IMG/VR virus record: IMGVR_UViG_3300025305_000129
Span: 1-24,939 of that record
DNA length: 24,939 nucleotides
Reading direction: 5' to 3' (one strand)
DNA from: a virus
Shown here: in pieces, positions 1 to 19,641 of the stretch
How the letters are laid out: every line of letters begins with the position of its first letter
Position numbering within the stretch: the first letter of the stretch is position 1
Notes under the pieces: model-generated
What the model saw: only the letters and a program-made list of their open reading frames with translations
The model's database searches: none
Told to the model about the DNA's origin: nothing
Position numbers and translations under genes: made by a program

Positions 1-2307
1 GTCTACTTCCGGGTCTAATTCCTTAAATAAATCAACCACTTCCTTAATAGCTTCAGTCTCTGTAATCTTCTTCTCCAAGGTAATACCCTTGGTCTTGGCT
101 TCCAGCTCAAGGTCTTCAAGTCTTTTAGTTGTTTGTTCAAAGCTCTGCTCTAACTGTTGTTTTTGCATACCAGCTAAATCTTCACGCATTAAATTAACTT
201 GAGCTGAAGACTGTGCATCTAATAAATCAGAATATTGCTTGTTTAATGCTGTTGCCTGTTCTGTTTGGACTGCTTCGGTTGTTGGCTTTGTTTTTTTAGA
301 AATAACTACATTAACTTTTAAATCTTTAATTCCTATTTCATTTGCTGACAATAAACGATGTAACCCATCACTAAGAAACCAACCTTTATCTGTTTTTACT
401 ATTTCTATAGGTTCTTTTATACCTTCTTTTTCTATTTCCTTAGTAAATTGTCTCCATGCTGCTCCCTTATTAGGCTCTTCGGTAGTCGGCTTTGGAATTT
501 CTTCTACTTGTCTATTAACATTTTTCATTACCCAATCAGTTGATAATGTTTGAATCCCAGCTTTTGTAGGGGCTTCTACTGGGACTTCAGGTTTTACTTC
601 AGGCGTTATTTCAGGCGATACGGGGGTAACCTCGACTGGAGTTACAGGTTCCTTGGGTACTTCTACAGGCTCGATTTTCGGCTCTTTTACGATTTCTGTG
701 GGTTTTACGGGTTCTACGGGTTTTTCTGGCTTAACTTTAATTGGGACTGGTTTGACAGGTTTTTCTGGCTTTACAATAGGTTCTGTTTTTACATCTACTC
801 CTCTTGCTTTCATTGCCGTTTCAAGCTCTACTGGTATTTCCTTGCCATGCATCAATTTCTGCGCCCATTCCATCTGTCTCCTGATAACCTGCTGTGCGCC
901 TTCGAGTGTATTTGGTGCTTTAATAGGCTTTGCTACATTAGTAGCTGGGTCAATATCAATCATATTCTTAGCAGCATCTCTCGCCCATTTTATCTGCTTG
1001 TCATATATTACAGCTTTTTGTTTTCCACTTAGACTATCAAACCATTCTTTATTAAATGCTGTTTTATTTTTACCTTTCGGGTCATAGACGACTATAGCAG
1101 TTTCTTTTGTCCCTTTTTTGGCAGGCAAGAAACGAGTATAAGTTCCTGCTGCGTGCATGGCAGCCATCATTAAAAATGACTGACCTAACTGCGCCCAATT
1201 TAATTCACCGCCTACAGCAGTCAATCCTTCTAATGCTGTCATCTCAGGATTATCTCCCAATACCCGTACCCAATCTTCAGTGAACTGAGTTGCTGTAATT
1301 CCCGTTGTCATAACACCAGTCTGAAGTAGGTATTTACTAAATGCAGCTAAAGTATTTGGAGTCCTTATAACTTCACCGCCAATTCTCCCCATCCAAGGGA
1401 AAGCAGCACCTAACATAGTATCTAAACCAGTTCCTACAACCCATCTTGTTGGTGTCATTTCTTCATATTGTTCTGGGTCACCAAGTCTTTCTAATCCACC
1501 CTTAGTTCCAAACGATAAACCACCGATAAGTGCTGGTGTTGCTTTTGATAAATATTTACCCCATCCAAGTTCGGCAATGGCTATAAGTTGAAATAAATCA
1601 CCAGACGTTTCACCTATACCACTAAATATCCTTGATGTTTTTCCCATTGGAGTATCTTCGCTAAATGCTATCTCTTGAGTTCTTTGTTCTAATAACTCCG
1701 TTAATGCTGGCTTATCCATAATGTCGCCAGTGAAAGGAACTAAATCAGTTATTAATTTGGTACTTTTAAGACCAGCGTGCTTCATAACCTGCCATAAAGG
1801 AGTTTTACCAACAAGAGGTACATCAACTAATAATGGGTCTTCTTCTAATATTTTTTCTAAATTATGTTTTTCTGTAATTTTAGAAAGCTCATTACTATGA
1901 AACACATCTAATGCTGTAAATTGGTCAGTCAAGGAACGAATACCTTGTTGTTCAGGTTCAGCCGCTGGCTGTTCCTGTTGCATCATTTGTTCTCTTATTT
2001 CAGGTCTTATAGCAAGCGATGGGGGGGCAGTGGCTCTTAGAATCGCTGTTTCTTCTGTGATGGCACTGGTGCGAAAATAATTGTTGATATTATCTTCGAT
2101 TTTCTTATTCAAATTATCAAGCTCTTTATCTTGATAAACTATATTAGATTGGAATGTCTGTGTTTCTACAGTGGGCTTTTGTTTTTCAACAAGTGGGTCT
2201 GCTTCCCAAGGGTTTGTCCCTTCTTCACCGATTAATGGGTCTGCTTCCCAAGGATTAGTTGATAAAGGTTCTTCGCTGGTAACTAAAGGGTCGTCTTCCC
2301 ATCCCAT
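1..2307 (-). CDS. Large ejection-locus protein with ParB-like domain (partial; C-terminus beyond window)
   Basis: An uninterrupted frame runs from ATG at 2307 to the left edge (769 codons, no stop), so the true protein is longer. The start overlaps the preceding stop as TAATG. Visible parts are: three Trp-Glu-x-Asp-Pro-Leu motifs (about residues 3-8, 20-25, 34-39); a Gly/Ala-rich region with hydrophobic helices (about 230-395), the sort of segment seen in phage internal proteins; a Pro/Lys/Glu/Val-rich stalk (about 508-582); a ParB/Srx-fold-like segment (about 626-669) with the signature DGLHRL (D647, H650, R651) followed by SANEIGI; and a charged, probably coiled-coil region from about 685 on. 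DGxHR motifs are the hallmark of ParB-like domains. The position after the tail and two internal-protein genes suggests a virion protein injected with the DNA. A polyvalent protein is the best class-level call; exact function is unknown. Confidence 0.75.
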   Translation of the reverse strand, partial: MGWEDDPLVTSEEPLSTNPWEADPLIGEEGTNPWEADPLVEKQKPTVETQTFQSNIVYQDKELDNLNKKIEDNINNYFRTSAITEETAILRATAPPSLAIRPEIREQMMQQEQPAAEPEQQGIRSLTDQFTALDVFHSNELSKITEKHNLEKILEEDPLLVDVPLVGKTPLWQVMKHAGLKSTKLITDLVPFTGDIMDKPALTELLEQRTQEIAFSEDTPMGKTSRIFSGIGETSGDLFQLIAIAELGWGKYLSKATPALIGGLSFGTKGGLERLGDPEQYEEMTPTRWVVGTGLDTMLGAAFPWMGRIGGEVIRTPNTLAAFSKYLLQTGVMTTGITATQFTEDWVRVLGDNPEMTALEGLTAVGGELNWAQLGQSFLMMAAMHAAGTYTRFLPAKKGTKETAIVVYDPKGKNKTAFNKEWFDSLSGKQKAVIYDKQIKWARDAAKNMIDIDPATNVAKPIKAPNTLEGAQQVIRRQMEWAQKLMHGKEIPVELETAMKARGVDVKTEPIVKPEKPVKPVPIKVKPEKPVEPVKPTEIVKEPKIEPVEVPKEPVTPVEVTPVSPEITPEVKPEVPVEAPTKAGIQTLSTDWVMKNVNRQVEEIPKPTTEEPNKGAAWRQFTKEIEKEGIKEPIEIVKTDKGWFLSDGLHRLLSANEIGIKDLKVNVVISKKTKPTTEAVQTEQATALNKQYSDLLDAQSSAQVNLMREDLAGMQKQQLEQSFEQTTKRLEDLELEAKTKGITLEKKITETEAIKEVVDLFKELDPEVD

Positions 2308-3599
2308 TATTGCTTAGTCCTTTGTTTACCATTTGGGTCTATATAGGTCGCCCCCTTAGGTAAATTGTTATAATCTGCCGCTGAACTGACTGTTGGTATT
2401 TCTGGTGCTTGTTGTGTCTCGGCTTGTTGAGGCTGTTCCTGATTAGCAGACATTAACCCCCTTGGGTCTGGGTCTGCCAACCCTGATATGTGGTTTTTTG
2501 CTTTTAAATATTTTCTCCTAAGTTCTTCAGCAAACATTCTTCTAAGCGAAGGCATATCCACCTCCAAATATGGTATTGAAACAAATGCGTCATTGACTCC
2601 TATGTAATAGCCTTTTTTACCTCTTATAAAATCCTTTGGAACTAATTTGGCTATGATATTAATATTTTCATTGATAAGCTGTTCGTTTCCAGTTCCACGG
2701 GTCTCTGGACTTTCTGTTAGTTTGCCGTCTACAAAAGTCCTACCTAAATCTCTATTCATCTCTTCTTTTACTACATTGATGGCATTGCTTAATACTTTGT
2801 TATCTTCATCTGATATAGCTGGTTTTTTCGTTGTTTTTTCTGTACGCACCCCATCTTTTACAACTATTTCTTTTTCTTCCTTTTGTCCTATTATTTTACT
2901 TTGTGTTTTAGTTTCTGGGTCTGTAAAATATAACAGTCGCCCATATTTATCTTGTTTATATAAAGGATTTATAGCATTATCAATAGAGTTGAATACCGTC
3001 CTCATATCATTATTATAATTTCTTAACATCGTTACATTCTTTGCTTCATTCTCTGTAATTTTACCGAGCTGTACATCCCTTGCATTCTCTTTTGATAACA
3101 CTGCAGTAATTCGTGTATCATATCTTCGTTGCTCTGCTTCACCAAAACCTATCTTATTTTTATTAGCTTCATACCATTGTGATAATTGAGCAGAACTAAC
3201 TGTTGGTCTTCCTTTAGAATCTTTATTATAATATATATTATCTAAACTTCTTGAGACAGGAGACAAATCTTTCTTTGATATTGCAATAGCTTGATTCCAT
3301 GTCATGTTTCCAGCTTCAATCTCAGATTCATATTCTTCTAATCTCGCATCTCCTGAATTTATCAGCACTTCATTTTTTTGTTTTAGTCTATGGTAATTTG
3401 CTTGAAAATCTCTTAATTGCGCTGGACTCATGCTCATAAAATTTTCATACACAGTGGGCTGTTGTGTTTGCTGTTGTGGTTGTTGCTGGGATTGTCCAGC
3501 CAAAGCCCTTTTCTCTGCTAATAATTGGTCAGTTTTATTTATCATATCTGCCGACATGGTAGGTAGACCTGATTGTTGTTCTTGTTGTCCGTTAGCCAT
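2307..3599 (-). CDS. Putative internal virion / ejection protein (430 aa)
   Basis: I do not recognise a named family. The protein is hydrophilic with no membrane segment. Its N-terminus is Gln-rich (QQQPQQQTQQ near residue 40), followed by a charged, largely helical body. A second Gln-rich stretch near residue 390 precedes a C-terminal tail reading LPKGATYIDPNGKQRTKQ. From memory, tails of the form LPxGAxYxDPxGxxRxK are recurrent at the ends of phage internal or lysis-associated proteins. The gene sits between a 441-aa Ala-rich protein and the giant ParB-containing protein, the position where P22- and T7-like phages encode proteins ejected with DNA. The ATG at 3599 follows a TAAGG-type ribosome site, and the stop overlaps the next start as TAATG. 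The ejection role is inferred from context. Confidence 0.6.
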   Translation of the reverse strand: MANGQQEQQSGLPTMSADMINKTDQLLAEKRALAGQSQQQPQQQTQQPTVYENFMSMSPAQLRDFQANYHRLKQKNEVLINSGDARLEEYESEIEAGNMTWNQAIAISKKDLSPVSRSLDNIYYNKDSKGRPTVSSAQLSQWYEANKNKIGFGEAEQRRYDTRITAVLSKENARDVQLGKITENEAKNVTMLRNYNNDMRTVFNSIDNAINPLYKQDKYGRLLYFTDPETKTQSKIIGQKEEKEIVVKDGVRTEKTTKKPAISDEDNKVLSNAINVVKEEMNRDLGRTFVDGKLTESPETRGTGNEQLINENINIIAKLVPKDFIRGKKGYYIGVNDAFVSIPYLEVDMPSLRRMFAEELRRKYLKAKNHISGLADPDPRGLMSANQEQPQQAETQQAPEIPTVSSAADYNNLPKGATYIDPNGKQRTKQ

Positions 3600-3607
3600 T
3601 GTAAACC

Positions 3608-4933
3608 TTATAAGGATGCTAAATTATTATTGATGAATAATTCTTCATATCTCTTTATTCTCTCTTCAGGAGACTTACCCCTCATCTCTGGTTCTTCTGC
3701 ATATAATTGATTATTAGCTGCCGCAGTTAATCCTTTTCCTTGCTTATAATTTATAACATCTGATGTTTCTATTTTATTTCCATCTTTGTCAATTTTACCC
3801 GAAAGGTAATCTTTCCATTCCTGACTTTTTATATGTTCTTCATACTCTGGTGTTCCTTTCTCGATTCTTTGCCCCTTGTATTTACCAAAAGTAGGCTTCA
3901 TACTAACTTTGCTTTCGTCACCTTTTTTAGTAGTTTTTTCTTTAATGTCTTTCAAAATGTTTTGCTCTGGGGCAGGGTCAAAACCTATATCGCTTTCTGG
4001 CACGCTACCTACAGTTTGAGAACCAAACCCAACTTGCTGCATTGCTTGGTTCACTAATACTGGGTCTGCTCCGCTACCGACTTGGCTAAGATACATTGAT
4101 TGCATTCTTTGTGCATTAGAAATAATATCAGCATCACTAATTCCAGAAGCCCGTAATTGCCTAATTTTGTCTGCGCTACCATATACGCCTTCAGCTAATT
4201 TCAAACCAGATATTTGTTGTTTTGATGCTCCAGAATATTGAGCATATTCAGCAGGGGACATACTACCTAACTCAGCCTTCTGAATACCAAGCTCTGGTGC
4301 GCCTTCTATGACTCCACCTTTTGCCATACCCTTGAATTGGCTGTAAGTAGTTCCTGCTGGAACGCTTCCATCCATTACTGCTTGCCTGAACCCAGCGATA
4401 TTCTCACCATATTGAGATATACCAGCAGACGCTAAAGATGCAGCACCTCCAATCACATCTGATGCTAACTGACGTTTCCACTGAGACTCAGCCGTTTTAA
4501 ACGCTTGGTCTGCCCGTGCTTCTTCTGCTCCTATTTGTGCCGTTATACCAGCCGCCTGTTGACCTATCCGTGCAGTCTCAGCAGTCTGTGCAGCCACCGC
4601 TTTATCAGTAGCCGTCGCAAGTGCTTCTTGGGTCTGTTGACCGGCAGATAATCTCATTTGAGCTTCTATGCCACTTCCACCAAGACCCGATTTTGCGACA
4701 TCGTAACCAACCTGTCGCTGCATTTGTCGTCCTTGTTTCCCTGCTACTCTTAACGCTGGCTGCATAGCCTGATGCATTACTTCTCTATCAGAAGAGCGAC
4801 CACGAATGTAACTCAAATATTTCTTCATATAATCGGTCTGGGGAGCATAATCTTCTTGTCGTGGTTTCGAAAGTGCAGTCCCTGCTACCTTTGCTGCTGC
4901 TGGTAATGCTGCTGCTAATAATTGCCAAGCCAT
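3608..4933 (-). CDS. Putative internal virion / DNA-ejection protein (441 aa)
   Basis: The N-terminus is hydrophobic and Ala-rich (LLAAALPAAAKVAG, residues 5-18). A long, Ala/Gln/Thr-rich predicted amphipathic helix follows (about residues 65-190), rich in AQTAETARIGQQAAG-like heptads, then a hydrophobic stretch (GGAASLASAGIS). The C-terminal part is charged and hydrophilic (about residues 320-441). This composition is typical of podoviral ejection proteins such as T7 gp14 and P22 gp7/gp20, which form a transenvelope conduit; that assignment is by composition and gene order, not by a recognised motif. The start overlaps the stop of the tail propeller gene by one base (TAATG), so translation is probably coupled. 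It is followed closely by another candidate internal protein. Confidence 0.6.
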   Translation of the reverse strand: MAWQLLAAALPAAAKVAGTALSKPRQEDYAPQTDYMKKYLSYIRGRSSDREVMHQAMQPALRVAGKQGRQMQRQVGYDVAKSGLGGSGIEAQMRLSAGQQTQEALATATDKAVAAQTAETARIGQQAAGITAQIGAEEARADQAFKTAESQWKRQLASDVIGGAASLASAGISQYGENIAGFRQAVMDGSVPAGTTYSQFKGMAKGGVIEGAPELGIQKAELGSMSPAEYAQYSGASKQQISGLKLAEGVYGSADKIRQLRASGISDADIISNAQRMQSMYLSQVGSGADPVLVNQAMQQVGFGSQTVGSVPESDIGFDPAPEQNILKDIKEKTTKKGDESKVSMKPTFGKYKGQRIEKGTPEYEEHIKSQEWKDYLSGKIDKDGNKIETSDVINYKQGKGLTAAANNQLYAEEPEMRGKSPEERIKRYEELFINNNLASL

Positions 4934-7900
4934 TATACTATTACCTCTGATTCTATATCTAATTCATACATGATTGATGAAATAGTGTCTGCGTTATTGA
5001 TTTGGAAAGTTACTGATTTTCCCCTATTACTACCTAATGGAACACCTCTCCATTCATTTGAGTCCGCTGAAACCGTGTGTGTCTTCTCTGCACCGACTAA
5101 ATTCTCTATGATAGATTCAAATTCTTTACTGTCTCCAGTATAATCAGCCTTGATTCTTTTTAGAGTTCCTTTTTCGAAGAACATACTTTTTGTTTTAATG
5201 TTTGAATCATCTGTTGTATAGGTATCAGTCGGATAAGAAAATATTTGTATATCAGAACCTTCAAAATCAGGATTTATATTTGTTCTGTCTTTCAAAAATA
5301 AATTTATATTTTCCAACTCAGAACCACCTGTTAAGGTTATAGATTGTTTTACATCCAACCCTAAAAACTTAGTCCAAACATTTCTTTCAATGTGATATAC
5401 ATAACTTGTCCCTTGATTAAGTGTGTCATGCAGTATGTATTGGTTGTTTAAAGGCACAAAATAACCTATTAACGACGACTTTATCGGAACATCGATGATA
5501 TTCTTGGTTATGAGACCAAGACCGTCTCTGTCCCATTTTACCACGCCTACTTCACTTAACCAGAATAATGCATCTCCAGCTCTGACCAATGACTTCTCAG
5601 CCAATAAACCATATTGCTTCTTTTCTTCAATCAGCGAACTCGATGAACCACTCCACCCACTCGCTGAACCTTGCAATACAAATCTGTTAATGCTGTTCCT
5701 TGTGAAAATAATGAATGTGTTCTGATACTCAAATTGTAGAAAAGAAGGGGCTGGCATTATCTTTATAATCGGTTCTCTGACCTTCTTGAAATATAAATCT
5801 GGAAATGCCTTACCATTTACATCTGTCCATTTGACCATGTTTCTGTTTGACTTGTACTTTATTTCTTTGGTCTCATCAAAATCAATATTGTTGTTATATG
5901 TATTATCAAGCCAGCCTTCACCAATCATATCCTCATACATTGGTTGGAAATTCCACAATTGTAATATTCCTTGTGTAGTATTAAGATATGTTCCTTTTTC
6001 AATGATAAGATTATCAATATAAGTATTCGCAGGTACTTCTGCTCTATCGTTTGAATATTCTGATTTGCCAATAATAATCCCATCCATTATCGGTTCTCTA
6101 TAATCATAGGTACTTGCATGGTATTGACCTTCTGGTAAATCAGTTATCTCAGAGCCATCAATCCCTCCTGTAAATGAAAAATCTTGAGAATCTGTATCAT
6201 AAAGCACAAGTGTAGTCTCCAATTCATGGAAATCCCAACTCCAAAATAGATTGTATGATTTAGTGCCACTTCCATTTTCATTATAAGTCGGCATATTTTC
6301 AAATGTCTTAGTTCGGTTTTGACTTCCAGTATAATTATAATAAAAGTTGGTTATAACCCATGTAAAATTGCCACCAATATTGTCTAATCCAAGAGTGACT
6401 CTTGGATTGCCATCAGCTTCCTGTACTAATACAAAAAAATAAGCATTTCCAGCAGCGTTACCATTACTTATGCCTTTTAATTCACTTATATCAAATGTGA
6501 TAGTGGCAGAAATAAATCCTTTAGATAAGTCTAATGCACTTGCTGTTTGAGATGCTGAATCGGTATACAAAAAATCATATTTTATTTTACCAATGTTGTT
6601 ATTTGTCGCATAGCTACTACTACCCATTTTAAAATCTGCAAACGACTCAAGTTGTGGTATAGATGATAGTCCACCCGTACTTGAATAGAAATCAGTCAAT
6701 TCACCATTGATATTCGTATTCGCTTTATTTAATGCACCACTATCATTACTAAATTCTTGTGGAGACACTATAAATGATGTGTCACGGACTCGACTATTAT
6801 TCCATACTTGTTGTCTGTGCCAACTCCAAACTCCAGTTCTATGAAACCTTCCATAATGAACACCGATATTGCCTTCCCAACTAAAATCATTTTCAATTAT
6901 TTCATTATAAGTGTCTGGAACACCATCATAGTCGTCTATATTAGCTTCATTAGTCCAACATAGATAAACCACATGGGAAGACCCAGCGACCAACAATGGA
7001 ATCTTTATGTATAAATCTACATACCGCTGAGGAGAATGTTGCCCATGTTTATAACTGACCATTATTGGTGTTGTAGCATCTTCGTCGTATAATCTTATAT
7101 GTTTTGCCCTTGAATCATTTATATGACCTGTACCAAAATCAAAAAAATCATCTACATTAAAATGTTCAATTGCAGTACCCATAGGTTCACCGGTGTAATA
7201 ATTGGTCTGAGGGGTAGTACTACTATCCCATAGACGTATTTTAACAACAGCATCTACATAGTGCTTATTATCTTTATTGCTAATAGTTATTGGATGATAA
7301 TATTTAAACTCATGTGGAAAATTAATCTTTGTCTGGACATTACCCAACATTGTAATACCACCAAGTGATGCTGCTGTTCTTGCTATTGGCGCAACATCAT
7401 TCTCGTAATTGACGGTATTACCTGCTGATACTTCAACAGTCAATGAATAACTATTACCAGTAGTTCCAGTTTTACTTGATTTATCTATTATCTCAAATTG
7501 TTCCGTAAGGTCTAATGTCTGTATCGTGTCCCCTTCGGAATAACGCATAACACGCATATAAACTTTAAAATATTTTAAATCTTCTAAATCATTTTCAGGA
7601 ATATCTGGTACTGATAAACCAGTAATAGATACTTTATCAATCCACCTTTCATCTGCACCATTAGCATCAATCTTAAAAAATTGCATATCCAGTGTATCAG
7701 ATATGGGTGATGGATTACTCTCATCACCAGATTTTGTGACGGCAGTATATGTGCATTGGAATAAACCAATCTGTGATAACCTTGCATCTGTGGATGTTTC
7801 TTCAAATAATGAATCGTCCCACTCAGTGATATGGGATACCCTTGCCTTATTCTTAGGAGCTGGCATCCCTAATTTCCCAGCCCTGAATAAACCATCTATA

Positions 7901-8436
7901 TCTATGGTTACAAAATGGGCGTTATTAACATTGTCGGTAATAATAATCCTGTCGTCTGACACAACAAATTGAACATCAGAGTCAGCAGTATATGCAATGC
8001 CAGCATCGGTCAATAAGGTATTTAAATTTGTTTCTACACCACCTACAGCATATTGAGCGGCATTAGTCCATGTATCACCAACCTTATACAATGTATGCAT
8101 CTCATATGTTTCATTCGTTATCTCACCACTTTCTAATGTATAACCAAACGCAAGTATAATATAATCAGAGTTTAATGTGTATCCGTCGGAATTAGTAAGG
8201 TCAATATCGGTTACAAAATAATACGGTTCTGAAATAACTTTGACAGTATTGAATAACTCAGAAAGTTTATCGTTTAAATTATCATCAAACGTCTCTTGCT
8301 CTGTCCTTCTTTTCAGTAAACCATCACCAGAAATCTCGTAATTCAGGCATTCCTGAAGTTGACTATTGTCTATCAGGTCAGAACGGGCTACGTCGTTAAG
8401 CCCACCCGTGAGGAGAGGTAATGCCCTTTTAGCCAT
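4933..8436 (-). CDS. Podoviral tail (stabilisation/nozzle-type) protein with DUF2341 and lectin-like insertion
   Basis: The first about 60 residues (ALPLLTGGLNDVARSDLID, LQECLNYEISGDGLLKRR) match the usual opening of podoviral tail stabilisation / nozzle proteins: a Gly-Gly-Leu-Asn segment, then 'NYEISGDGxLxxR'. The C-terminal third (about 825-1167) resumes that theme with VKWTDVNGKAFPDLY and IIFTRNSINRFVLQG, typical of the beta-propeller blades of such proteins. Between them, residues about 375-505 read like DUF2341 (YHPITISN, KHIRLYDEDATTPIMVSY, LYIKIPLLVAGSSHVVYLCW). Residues about 515-815 look like an all-beta lectin/LamG-type domain, the usual partner of DUF2341. Expected role: the tail tube/nozzle below the neck adaptors, with an added surface-binding module. 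The ATG at 8436 has a strong AGGAGT site. The stop overlaps the next start. Confidence 0.75.
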   Translation of the reverse strand: MAKRALPLLTGGLNDVARSDLIDNSQLQECLNYEISGDGLLKRRTEQETFDDNLNDKLSELFNTVKVISEPYYFVTDIDLTNSDGYTLNSDYIILAFGYTLESGEITNETYEMHTLYKVGDTWTNAAQYAVGGVETNLNTLLTDAGIAYTADSDVQFVVSDDRIIITDNVNNAHFVTIDIDGLFRAGKLGMPAPKNKARVSHITEWDDSLFEETSTDARLSQIGLFQCTYTAVTKSGDESNPSPISDTLDMQFFKIDANGADERWIDKVSITGLSVPDIPENDLEDLKYFKVYMRVMRYSEGDTIQTLDLTEQFEIIDKSSKTGTTGNSYSLTVEVSAGNTVNYENDVAPIARTAASLGGITMLGNVQTKINFPHEFKYYHPITISNKDNKHYVDAVVKIRLWDSSTTPQTNYYTGEPMGTAIEHFNVDDFFDFGTGHINDSRAKHIRLYDEDATTPIMVSYKHGQHSPQRYVDLYIKIPLLVAGSSHVVYLCWTNEANIDDYDGVPDTYNEIIENDFSWEGNIGVHYGRFHRTGVWSWHRQQVWNNSRVRDTSFIVSPQEFSNDSGALNKANTNINGELTDFYSSTGGLSSIPQLESFADFKMGSSSYATNNNIGKIKYDFLYTDSASQTASALDLSKGFISATITFDISELKGISNGNAAGNAYFFVLVQEADGNPRVTLGLDNIGGNFTWVITNFYYNYTGSQNRTKTFENMPTYNENGSGTKSYNLFWSWDFHELETTLVLYDTDSQDFSFTGGIDGSEITDLPEGQYHASTYDYREPIMDGIIIGKSEYSNDRAEVPANTYIDNLIIEKGTYLNTTQGILQLWNFQPMYEDMIGEGWLDNTYNNNIDFDETKEIKYKSNRNMVKWTDVNGKAFPDLYFKKVREPIIKIMPAPSFLQFEYQNTFIIFTRNSINRFVLQGSASGWSGSSSSLIEEKKQYGLLAEKSLVRAGDALFWLSEVGVVKWDRDGLGLITKNIIDVPIKSSLIGYFVPLNNQYILHDTLNQGTSYVYHIERNVWTKFLGLDVKQSITLTGGSELENINLFLKDRTNINPDFEGSDIQIFSYPTDTYTTDDSNIKTKSMFFEKGTLKRIKADYTGDSKEFESIIENLVGAEKTHTVSADSNEWRGVPLGSNRGKSVTFQINNADTISSIMYELDIESEVIV

Positions 8437-15960: not shown

Positions 15961-18900
15961 TTAAACCCAGTATGTCATTGTAAATCCACCATAAGTACCT
16001 GAACCCACAGCATCAACTTCTACACCAGCATAAGTAGTAGCTGACTGTGTGGCTAAAAATACCGAAGCAGTACCCGTTTCTACTCTGGTAAAATGTGCTA
16101 TTGCTGAAAAACTCGTATTCCCATAAATACTAAATACAGAGCCAACAGCATATTTTGGGTCTCCAGCAGTAAACGGCAATCCTGTAATATTTGTAGACGC
16201 ATTTTCAAAAGAACCAGCGGTTGTGATATCTCTAAAAGACCATTGAACAGTAACTTGATTTCCAATTTTAGTATATGTTGCATTTTCATTACCACCTGAA
16301 CGAGTAATAGTAGTTGAACCACTTACTAATACTGGTGTCCAAGTACCTTCTTCATAATCGTCAAGAATATTTGCCCCACCACTTGCAGATTGAGTTGGTG
16401 GGAAACTCACACCATTAGCTGATACTACACTACAATGAACAGTAGCACCTTTATCATAACCCATATAAATATCATCTACGTCTGCATTACCAAGCACTAC
16501 TGAATTATCATAATCAGCTACTACACCATAGCCTATTGCCGTTCTATTTGTTGCAGCAACATCATCTACGTCTGTATCACAACCTACTAATGTATTATTA
16601 TTTCCATTGTCAATTACTGTACCAGATTGATAGCCGATGAGAACATTATTATCCTCATCTCCATCCATATTTAGACCAGCTTGATAACCGAGTAAGGTAT
16701 TGTGTTCTCCAGTTGTCACCTCTTGACCTACCTGATACCCCACAGCAGTATTCCCAGCACCAGATGTGAGGGCGGCAAGGGCAGATTTTCCGATGGCGAC
16801 CGTGCCGTCAGCCGCATCTGTCATTACAGAACCTCCAGCAGAGTATCCTATAATTACTGTATTATCTACATCAACAGTCGCATCACCAGCATCAGCCCCA
16901 ATAACAACATTCTGGTCACCAGTTTTAATACTTTCTAAAGCATCCTTGCCTATGGCAACATTTAAATTACAAGAACTACCGCCAGTAGTTCCTACCATTG
17001 CATTAAAACCTAATGCAGTATTGTGAGTACCATCATCTAAATTCTTACCAGAATAAGAACCTACATAAGTGCATCCAGCAACACCAAAACCAGTATCGTT
17101 AATATCTTCGCCAGCTTGATAGCCTATAAGAGTACAATCATTTGAGGTAACTAATTCAAGTCCAGCATTATACCCCACTGCGACGTTTCTTGCACCCGTT
17201 GTGAGGGCTGTGAGGGAATTTGAGCCGATTGCAACAGTGCCTGTTTGAGCGTTTGCGGCTGTAGAATTCATAGCTAAATAGCCAATAGCAACACATTCTG
17301 CCATAGCCGCCGCTCCACCAATACCAGCACTTGTACCAATAATTACATTGTTATCTGCTGTTGAACTATCTATCTCACTACCTGCGGCGTAACCAATAGC
17401 AACATTACCACCTTCTCCTGCATCACAAGAATTTAAAGCGTAAGCACCAACCGCAACATTATCACCTGAATTTGTTAATTCATCAAGAGCTAAATAACCA
17501 ATAGCTACATTATTACTACCAGTTGTGACAGCATACAAGGAACGATAACCCACTGATACATTATTTGAGTGAGCGTTATCTGTAACGCCTTTTGCAGACT
17601 CATATCCAATCGCTGTATTATAATCTCCAGTATGATTTCCAGTTAAAGCACCATAACCTAAAGCAGTAGTACCAATACCACTTGTGAGTTTTTCACCAGC
17701 ATCACGACCTACAATAGTTGTGCCATTGGCATCATCATGGTTAATCGCTGTTCCAGCATTCATCCCTATTAAAACACAATTGGATTGTGATGTCATAGCG
17801 TCGCCAGCCGCCCTACCGATTGCGACGTTCTGAGAGCCAGACGTTATTGCCCAAAGAGCCTCACTTCCGACAGCAGTATTTGAATCTCCATCTGTGATAC
17901 TATATAGTGCGGCATGTCCGAATGCGGCATTACGCTCTGCACCAGCAACAGCACCACCTTTAAAACATTGATGACCAAATAATGTATTATAATCTGAACC
18001 ATTGTTACTTGAATTATTCCAACAATCAAAACCAAATATTGTGTTTTCGGTATTAGAACTATCATTATTCGATAGGCTGATTCGGGAATTGTTGTCTATA
18101 ACAAATTGTTTAGATGATGAAGAACCAGCATAAAATTCAAACTTGTCACCACTATGTTGATATTTAATATACCCAATAGCCGTGCCTTCATCTTTAAAAC
18201 CTATTATCGCTGTTCTATTAGATGCTCCAGTATCAAATATGAGTTGTGGGTCACCACCACTTGCTGAATCAATTAATACAGTTGGGTCAGCAACCGAACC
18301 TCCTCCAACATCAAGTAATGCCGCTGGAGCCGTAGTTCCAATTCCGACATTGCCATTATGGTCAATTCTGAGTCTCTCTGAGACAGCTGAACCTACCATT
18401 GATTCGGGACTTGTACTAAAAACAAGAGCAGTTCCTTCTGCTGTATTATTTGCCCACGTTTGTGTTGCTTCTCCATGAATTTTTGCACCTAATCCCCAAG
18501 TGGAGCCATCTTCTGTACCCATAAAGACAATAGTACCCAATTTATTACCATCTACTATAGTACTATCATAAATACCAAGTCCAAGAGTTCCACCCTCAGT
18601 CGTGCTTTCCGCAGCAACGACCAATGTATTGTTAGGACTCGCAGTTCCAATTCCCACTTTGCCATCTGAACCTTGTACGAATAAAGCGTTAGCTTCACCA
18701 CTCGCTTCTACTCTGAAATCAGAATCAATACCAGCTTCATTTATTACTACTGCACAAGCAGTTCCATTGGCAACGTCTTCACCCCCAATCGAAAATAATT
18801 CTTTGTCAGCCGCAGTTCCAGCAGTTCCACCAGCGTGGACATAAAATTGTATTTTACCACCCTCATCACCATTAGTAATATCTGTTGATGATGCTCGGAT

Positions 18901-19641
18901 TAAACCATATCTTGTTTCATTGTTCCCACTATCATAACCATACCAGCCAATATCACCAAGTTCGTCATCATCTGCTTCTGAAGCTGAAATTTTTGAAAAT
19001 TTAAGCATCCCTCCATGATTACCAGCATGAGTTGTCTTTATTTGAAGAATTGGCTCATTGTCATCGGTTGACTCTAAATGAAGCAATGTAGCGGGAGCCG
19101 CAGTTCCAATTCCGACATTGCCACCTTTTTTAACAGTTAAACCAACACCGCCATCACCATCGTCACCAATGACACTTAACCATGCTCTTGAATTAGATGA
19201 CTCTAAAGTAAAACCAAGAATCCCAGCCTCATCAGATTCTGTTGATTTTCCAAAAGTTAAATACGTATAATTGCCATCACCTTGGCTTGGATTAAAAAAT
19301 CTTGCCATAGTTCCATTAAGATTACCAGCCAAAGTCTGTACTACGTGCAATGCATTTCCTGTACCATCTTGCTGAATATAAAGTGCAGTTTGGTCATCAG
19401 AAGCACTATCATTAACAAACTTTACAAGAGGACTATTGGTTGCAGAAGCCGCTAAATCTCTACTAACATAAAGACCAATACCTGTAGCTTGGTCAGCAGT
19501 TTGAGTAATAGATACATTGCCTTCTAATACTTCTGAATATGCAAATCCACCTTCACCACTTACAGTTAAATCACCTGAGATGGTCAGGTCGCCAGTTATT
19601 GTTCCACCACCAGTTAAATGTGCCGCACTTACGAATTTCAT
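15961..19641 (-). CDS. Large YadA-type repeat tail fibre (1226 aa)
   Basis: The N-terminus has short beta repeats (TITGDLTISGDLTVSGEGG, residues 14-32). Residues about 45-520 contain phage-fibre modules with three (N/K)VGIGT turns (175, 328, 431). Residues about 530-1053 hold over 20 repeats of the type N-(T/V)-A-(I/V)-G-x-x-A-(L/G), about 20-25 residues each, the signature of the YadA-type left-handed beta-roll. After a link at VLGNADVDDIYMG comes the C-terminal domain from about 1093 (DDYEEGTWTPVL to MTYWV), a beta-rich tip seen on many phage fibres. It probably forms a trimer that binds the cell surface. An AAGGAGT site precedes ATG 19641. The gene is unusually far from the other tail genes, lying next to the head module. 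Confidence 0.85.
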   Translation of the reverse strand: MKFVSAAHLTGGGTITGDLTISGDLTVSGEGGFAYSEVLEGNVSITQTADQATGIGLYVSRDLAASATNSPLVKFVNDSASDDQTALYIQQDGTGNALHVVQTLAGNLNGTMARFFNPSQGDGNYTYLTFGKSTESDEAGILGFTLESSNSRAWLSVIGDDGDGGVGLTVKKGGNVGIGTAAPATLLHLESTDDNEPILQIKTTHAGNHGGMLKFSKISASEADDDELGDIGWYGYDSGNNETRYGLIRASSTDITNGDEGGKIQFYVHAGGTAGTAADKELFSIGGEDVANGTACAVVINEAGIDSDFRVEASGEANALFVQGSDGKVGIGTASPNNTLVVAAESTTEGGTLGLGIYDSTIVDGNKLGTIVFMGTEDGSTWGLGAKIHGEATQTWANNTAEGTALVFSTSPESMVGSAVSERLRIDHNGNVGIGTTAPAALLDVGGGSVADPTVLIDSASGGDPQLIFDTGASNRTAIIGFKDEGTAIGYIKYQHSGDKFEFYAGSSSSKQFVIDNNSRISLSNNDSSNTENTIFGFDCWNNSSNNGSDYNTLFGHQCFKGGAVAGAERNAAFGHAALYSITDGDSNTAVGSEALWAITSGSQNVAIGRAAGDAMTSQSNCVLIGMNAGTAINHDDANGTTIVGRDAGEKLTSGIGTTALGYGALTGNHTGDYNTAIGYESAKGVTDNAHSNNVSVGYRSLYAVTTGSNNVAIGYLALDELTNSGDNVAVGAYALNSCDAGEGGNVAIGYAAGSEIDSSTADNNVIIGTSAGIGGAAAMAECVAIGYLAMNSTAANAQTGTVAIGSNSLTALTTGARNVAVGYNAGLELVTSNDCTLIGYQAGEDINDTGFGVAGCTYVGSYSGKNLDDGTHNTALGFNAMVGTTGGSSCNLNVAIGKDALESIKTGDQNVVIGADAGDATVDVDNTVIIGYSAGGSVMTDAADGTVAIGKSALAALTSGAGNTAVGYQVGQEVTTGEHNTLLGYQAGLNMDGDEDNNVLIGYQSGTVIDNGNNNTLVGCDTDVDDVAATNRTAIGYGVVADYDNSVVLGNADVDDIYMGYDKGATVHCSVVSANGVSFPPTQSASGGANILDDYEEGTWTPVLVSGSTTITRSGGNENATYTKIGNQVTVQWSFRDITTAGSFENASTNITGLPFTAGDPKYAVGSVFSIYGNTSFSAIAHFTRVETGTASVFLATQSATTYAGVEVDAVGSGTYGGFTMTYWV
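16483..18054 (-). repeat. Over 20 YadA-head-type repeats in fibre 1
   Basis: Serial units such as NTAVGSEALWAIT, NVAIGRAAGDAM, NTAIGYESAKGV, NVAIGYLALDEL and NTAVGYQVGQEV encode a long beta-roll, each turn about 20-25 residues. DNA copies are diverged but keep phase. Repeat number is a likely site of length variation between relatives. Confidence 0.85.

Follow-up and report, generated by a model that had tools for sequence, protein, structure and literature searches.

The window analysed here constitutes a virus record of 24,939 bases (IMGVR_UViG_3300025305_000129), and at its left edge lies the N-terminal part of a giant gene on the minus strand. Relative to L002, a complete open reading frame (ORF) of 2372 amino acids and the sole close relative of the window protein over its whole length, this gene contains an in-frame insertion that encodes a predicted ParB/sulfiredoxin (Srx)-fold domain. 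Other relatives hold different contents at the same place (slot 1), where domains have been exchanged. We consider it probable that the giant is an ejection protein of the gp16 type which has grown into a polyvalent effector carrier, with an exchangeable slot for cargo. The original prediction had described a frame of at least 769 codons, open at the window edge, as a candidate polyvalent protein of an ejection locus. The frame indeed runs from the ATG at 2307 to base 1 with no stop, and the candidate is strengthened by relatives whose C-terminal half is homologous to internal virion protein D, by the gene order and by the polyvalent-type domains found at the same point in relatives. The location of the ParB domain in an exchangeable slot lay beyond its view.

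An in-frame insertion between conserved borders

Compared with L002, the ParB segment adds a net 297 bases, i.e. 99 codons, and the flanking DNA is 81% identical up to the linker and 90.5% identical after the insertion (coordinates in Table 1). The left border of the slot is a linker rich in proline, lysine and glutamate. The right border is a conserved, charged and helix-like block after the ParB core, corresponding to the coiled coil of the original prediction; its residues 674-769 are 94% identical to L002, 84% to L015 and 53% to L006. L015 has the linker in common with the window, diverges abruptly after the '...ITPE' codons and rejoins it at the helical block.

The GC content at third codon positions (GC3) is 0.146 in the insert versus 0.281 in the rest of the ORF. 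Among windows of its own gene, the insert ranks in the lowest 2% by GC3 and in the lowest 7% by GC. We rejected low GC as proof of recent acquisition, since 10% of the coding windows of the contig have a GC content as low. The slot inserts of L004 and L006 are unremarkable in composition.

Slot 1 is empty in L002. In L004 it holds a GNAT acetyltransferase (PF13508, 2.2e-5; phrog_10691, 6.5e-29) with 42-49% identity to domains inside DarB-like/PLxRFG giant proteins of cultured phages, such as Serratia phage Parlo and Klebsiella phage vB_KpnP_ZX1; this likeness concerns the GNAT domain only, the ParB cassette having no shown relation to these giants. The L006 slot contains a segment that has motifs resembling a glycine loop as well as lysine motifs and has homologous counterparts in L052 and L142, and the L015 slot about 290 residues which are ART-like by eye only ('KVYHGGDLKKL...LYVSENKKEAINYI...KEKGYGAIRF'). 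The slot segment of L013 gave no matches. In L052 (G009, a 54,069-base contig), an open frame of 4517 amino acids carries NTP-transferase, GNAT, ART-PolyVal, kinase-like and ParB segments, and segments resembling both the kinase-like one of L006 and the GNAT of L004 recur inside it; therefore, the same cargo types circulate elsewhere. A profile of LPD38 found no matches, controls included, and is uninformative.

The ParB/Srx-fold domain

The motif residues D647, H650 and R651 named in the original prediction are found at these positions ('LSDGLHRL') and include the conserved arginine of the GxxR phosphate motif (G648-L-H-R651). As checks of the ParB call, it had named a profile search and a structure prediction. 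Pfam scans of the window protein and of the segment returned no ParB family even at E <= 10, neither the ParB_N profile of partition ParB (PF02195) nor the DdrB-like ParB profile (PF18763). The extra helix of the DdrB type, located between the last helix and the last strand and bearing a conserved tyrosine, is absent from the structural model, in which the helix 80-89 is directly followed by the strand 93-100. Neither a helix-turn-helix (HTH) after the segment, as in partition ParB, nor a partner ParA was seen. The isolated segment matches six PHROGs named 'ParB-like partition protein' (E 0.001-0.1) and has weak PDB matches to SbnI and sulfiredoxin (E 0.13-0.2).

A custom profile was built by scanning viral contigs for the DNA pattern of DGxHRLxAA, which provided 78 other phage domains, with the window excluded. 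It scored the window domain with 42.7 bits (E 1.8e-11), compared to a best of 9.5 bits among 7000 plain shuffles. Because the profile set was chosen by its motif, we added 5000 shuffles in which D, G, H, R and L retained their positions, of which the best reached 24.7 bits, and the window domain with its motif masked scored 11.2 bits. The motif therefore gives much, though not all, of the profile signal.

An AlphaFold model, made from an alignment of 61 sequences, has a predicted local distance difference test score (pLDDT) of 77.8 overall and about 90 in the core, with the topology beta-alpha...alpha-beta-beta-alpha-beta. The 50 PDB structures that match it best all belong to ParB, Noc, KorB, Srx, SerK/SbnI, PadC or 1vk1 (best Foldseek value 1.1e-5). 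With VIA-align, sulfiredoxin gave a Z value of 9.8 and M. xanthus ParB values of 9.0-8.9 (range 9.8-8.0). Hence, the ParB call, which family scans alone would miss, rests on the custom profile and the predicted fold. Together they make a solid case that residues 611-671 form a real ParB/sulfiredoxin-fold domain, with the caveat that the alignment used for the model was built of motif-selected ParB-like sequences, which could favour the ParB fold.

No relatives of the ParB segment were found in 50,697 phage records, nor by peptide patterns in viral contigs. The ParB domain of the L034 giant is 38% identical to that of the window. This giant (L034:7018-13680, 2221 amino acids) belongs to an unrelated-looking phage, and its ParB domain comes after a Gly/Ala-rich region resembling the N-terminal region of L004.

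Gene position and C-terminal part of the giant protein

Upstream of the giant ORF, on the same strand, we found the portal (phrog_156, 1.2e-36), the major capsid protein (PF13252, 1e-20), connector-region genes, a protein in the tubular-B position and two further genes. Because of this order, the giant gene occupies the place of T7 gene 16. Its late structural gene context is a trait of polyvalent proteins as well. The window agrees with CRP-804 and ProddE in the positions of tubular B and of internal virion proteins B, C and D, in this order, whereby the window genes upstream of the giant were matched to the first three by position only.

The relatives have two unrelated C-terminal types, A (L002, L006, L016) and B (L004, L013, L015). 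Type-A C-termini match phrog_6651 'internal virion protein', and in tblastn the C-terminus of L002 found internal virion protein D of Autographiviridae phages (1e-17 to 1e-4), i.e. of Roseobacter CRP phages, Desulfovibrio phage ProddE, Syn5, P60 and Pelagibacter HTVC119P. At the sequence level, L002, L006 and L016 thus show homology over their C-terminal half with internal virion protein D of the T7 gp16 type. For the window protein, type A is the likelier continuation because of the end overlap with L016, whose ORF runs on from the 105 shared bases into a type-A gp16-like C-terminus, and because both the N-terminus and the gp15-position gene are L002-like. The contigs of the window and of L016 both break within the same conserved block of the giant gene.

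A mosaic chassis

Complete relatives of the giant ORF have 2372, 2240, 1797 and 2313 amino acids, and pairwise comparison divides them into parts with different histories of sharing. The N-terminal region is common only to the window and L002, and residues 1-504 are almost unrelated to their counterparts in L004, L006, L013 and L015. The Gly/Ala-rich segments announced for the giant in the original prediction are present, their hydrophobic character is only mild (no 19-residue window exceeds the 1.4 cut-off), and the Pro-rich stalk corresponds to the linker, with 17 prolines in 66 residues. The conserved block and a central module are common to all relatives reaching them. A second variable region follows the central module, in which L002 agrees with L016 (89%) and L004 with L015 (75%), while L013 is different and L006 nearly empty. 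The tail genes of the relatives are more uniformly related, at 60-72% for the nearer relatives and 48% for L013, and the same values apply to the protein in the tubular-B place. The giant gene therefore apparently recombines faster than its neighbours.

The variation of the gp15-position gene (2307-3599) parallels that of two parts of the giant, its N-terminal region and its second variable region, as if matching were required. The product of this gene is 59% identical between window and L002 and 48% between L004 and L015, with 20-33% for other pairs (21-28% between the window and the other relatives). As gp15 and gp16-N are in contact in T7 (PMC8954989), co-inheritance would be expected, and the co-variation is suggestive only.

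In the central module (L002 residues about 575-880, with equivalents in L004, L006, L013, L015 and L016), the sequence GTVVEERAEVWY...EWFSDRAK has a zincin-like layout, with EERAE where a zincin metallopeptidase has HExxH. The module is perhaps a dead or altered self-processing peptidase; the PF18818 profile did not match it. The same profile (MPTase-PolyVal, E about 1e-30) found separate ORFs of 320-336 amino acids in the L002, L004 and L016 records (G001:C1:41751-42098, G003:C1:10566-10949 and G008:C1:14841-15194), each possibly a solo ArdC-like anti-restriction protein, and gave no match within the giant ORFs themselves.

Table 1. Features of the window in and next to the giant gene
Feature	Position	Strand	Basis or remark
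Giant virion protein ORF, N-terminal 769 amino acids	1..2307	-	ATG at 2307, no stop, 3'-open at contig edge
End overlap with L016 contig	1..105	-	105/105 identical to the start of L016
Conserved helix-like block, residues 674-769, right border of slot 1	1..288	-	identity to relatives
Slot 1 with inserted ParB cassette, about residues 571-673	290..596	-	307 bases versus 10 in L002
Predicted ParB/Srx-fold core, residues 611-671	295..477	-	profile 42.7 bits; AlphaFold pLDDT about 90; Foldseek and VIA-align matches
DGLHR motif, residues 647-651, includes GxxR phosphate motif	355..369	-	D, G, H and R without exception across 61 aligned phage domains, themselves picked by the DGxHR motif
Pro/Lys/Glu-rich linker, residues about 505-570, left border of slot 1	598..795	-	common to L002; 113 base pairs at 91% with L015
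N-terminal region, residues 1-504	796..2307	-	78% identity with L002 (1-505)
Protein in T7 gp15 (internal virion protein C) place, 430 amino acids	2307..3599	-	position only
Protein in T7 gp14 (internal virion protein B) place, 441 amino acids	3608..4933	-	position; 54-79% identity to relatives
Large structural protein in tubular-B place	4933..8436	-	position

Among the neighbouring genes, the gp14-position protein (window 3608-4933; L002:6598-8730) is conserved over its N-terminal approximately 300 amino acids and variable at its C-terminus; it has 441 amino acids in the window versus 625-710 in several relatives, and those of L002 and L015 have an extra C-terminal domain in common. Between the capsid genes and the connector-region genes, a repeat-rich protein of 1226 amino acids (15961-19641) matches the virion structural/tail-spike families phrog_6002 and phrog_4636. 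A PADLOC search gave no match, and a host search through genome contigs found no relative.

Discussion

ART, kinase, GNAT and ParB domains have already been described in polyvalent proteins (PMC5512222), and ParB-fold domains bind ATP, CTP or GTP via GxxR (PMC12704722). In toxin systems, ParB domains of the DGHHR type have been predicted to be nucleases (PMC3482391), and the ParB domains of polyvalent proteins were proposed to be NTP-regulated DNases (PMC5512222). In T7, gp14, gp15 and gp16 exit the head and form a conduit, gp16 crossing the inner membrane with its C-terminal part in the cytoplasm (PMC8954989).

Against this background, we infer that the phage is short-tailed and that its giant gene encodes an internal virion (ejection) protein. 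The C-terminal part of this protein, for the window copy presumably as in the type-A relatives, would be the T7 gp16-type ejectosome module, and its N-terminal and middle parts would serve as carrier, in which cargo domains are swapped between phages at two fixed places. In the window phage, slot 1 between the proline-rich linker and the helical block would carry the ParB/Srx-fold domain. The giant protein would be packed in the head. Once the phage has adsorbed, it would be ejected together with the proteins of the gp14 and gp15 positions and would insert into the envelope, such that the cargo may reach the cytoplasm; such delivery is proposed because the slot enzymes would need cytosolic acetyl-CoA and nucleoside triphosphates (NTPs), as well as NAD+ and ATP if the ART and kinase assignments hold. 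There, the ParB domain might bind a nucleotide via its GxxR/DGLHR pocket and act early in infection on a host or nucleic-acid target, which we leave unspecified. It would be an NTP-dependent early effector, most likely a hydrolase or nuclease.

Several points weigh against this explanation. The window covers only the first 769 codons, and the C-terminus of its own protein lies beyond the edge. L015 has a slot-flanking block of 84-89% identity, yet its C-terminus is unrelated and without match in phage records. A profile of the relatives' C-termini did not detect T7 gp16 in the PDB. The kinase identity of the L006 slot is unconfirmed, with no Pfam or PF18762 match and a model pLDDT of 45, and the ART identity of the L015 slot was confirmed neither by Pfam, PDB and PF18760 nor by its relatives. 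Furthermore, sequence does not allow the nucleotide specificity and activity of ParB domains to be predicted (PMC12704722). Nor can it be taken for granted that an N-terminal cargo is delivered to the cytoplasm, because in T7 the region N-terminal to gp16-C ends in the periplasm (PMC8954989).

ParB proteins are nucleotide-switched DNA clamps, and gp16-C, which binds DNA, is a proposed clamp as well (PMC8954989). Hence, the inserted domain could be a non-enzymatic nucleotide/DNA clamp that helps the ejectosome to grip and pull in the genome. However, we regard such a role as unlikely, since L002 does without the domain and other relatives have unrelated domains, which argues against a core ejection function, and since the HTH of partition ParB is missing after the segment. 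Still less probable is a role in structure or assembly only, with the giant protein staying behind at ejection or being trimmed before it is packaged; the cleavage of P1 DdrB before packaging (PMC5512222) gives a precedent. Against this reading speak the C-terminal homology of the relatives to internal virion protein D, the gp16-like gene position and the giant ORFs themselves, which gave no match to the MPTase-PolyVal profile.

The empty allele of L002 and the pervasive mosaicism of ejection proteins (PMC8954989) would also fit a near-neutral accretion of domains in a tolerant linker, with no role in infection. We give this just as little credit as the structural alternative, because the slots contain intact enzyme-type domains with their motifs kept (DGLHR; the GNAT match) and domains of these types turn up again in unrelated giants. 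An assembly chimera has to be considered for a metagenomic contig in which the window edge is itself an assembly break, but it is very improbable here: the net 99 codons are in frame within a single open frame, the flanks are sharp and conserved, and other relatives independently hold different in-frame contents at the same place.

The gp16-type carrier that we favour shares with polyvalent proteins (Iyer et al. 2017, PMC5512222) the very large late-gene protein, an effector-type domain and the predicted injection with the DNA. It differs in that one point of one conserved chassis varies among close relatives, with different domains or none. Moreover, the window ParB is not detectably of the DdrB type, by which PMC5512222 defines the polyvalent proteins of phages, and no MPTase-PolyVal domain was detected in the giant ORF; this domain is common, though not universal, in polyvalent proteins. 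Polyvalent proteins unite several biochemically disparate domains; in the truncated window copy one enzyme-type domain is seen, to which the relatives add the internal virion protein D module or GNAT.

With internal virion protein D of the Autographiviridae, the giants have in common the order after tubular B and two internal-protein-like genes, and in L002, L006 and L016 about 600-800 homologous C-terminal amino acids. However, they are larger (about 1800-2400 amino acids, against 609-1337 quoted in PMC8954989) and, unlike the T7 gp16 type, have a large cargo-bearing N-terminal part. The transglycosylase domain, which is N-terminal in T7 and not present in all phages, had no Pfam match in the window protein or in P0001-P0003. 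With SerK, SbnI, Srx and the ParB toxins of polymorphic systems, i.e. the DGxHR class of the ParB-CTPase fold (PMC3482391, PMC12704722), the window domain shares the predicted fold and the GxxR/DGxHR pocket, but it is embedded in a predicted virion protein and is accompanied by no visible ParA or HTH.

Ejection-protein mosaicism as such is already published (PMC8954989). In the open-access literature searched, we came across no account of a gp16-type protein that has an exchangeable cargo slot at a fixed place, with an empty allele. Polyvalent proteins have been defined by comparing very different elements, whereas the differences seen here lie between close relatives and at a single point of one gene, and this natural insertion series including the empty allele opens the importance and the destination of the cargo to direct testing. 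Moreover, it connects polyvalent proteins with the T7-type ejectosome, a machine whose structure is understood. More tentatively, with somewhat less confidence than in the carrier itself, we suggest that the ejectosome is a general delivery chassis, in which a gp16-type protein with two fixed sockets receives shuffled effector domains of unrelated phages, and recombination would swap the cytoplasmic effector that acts at DNA entry without disturbing ejection. The giant protein may represent a natural carrier which accepts foreign domains at a known site.
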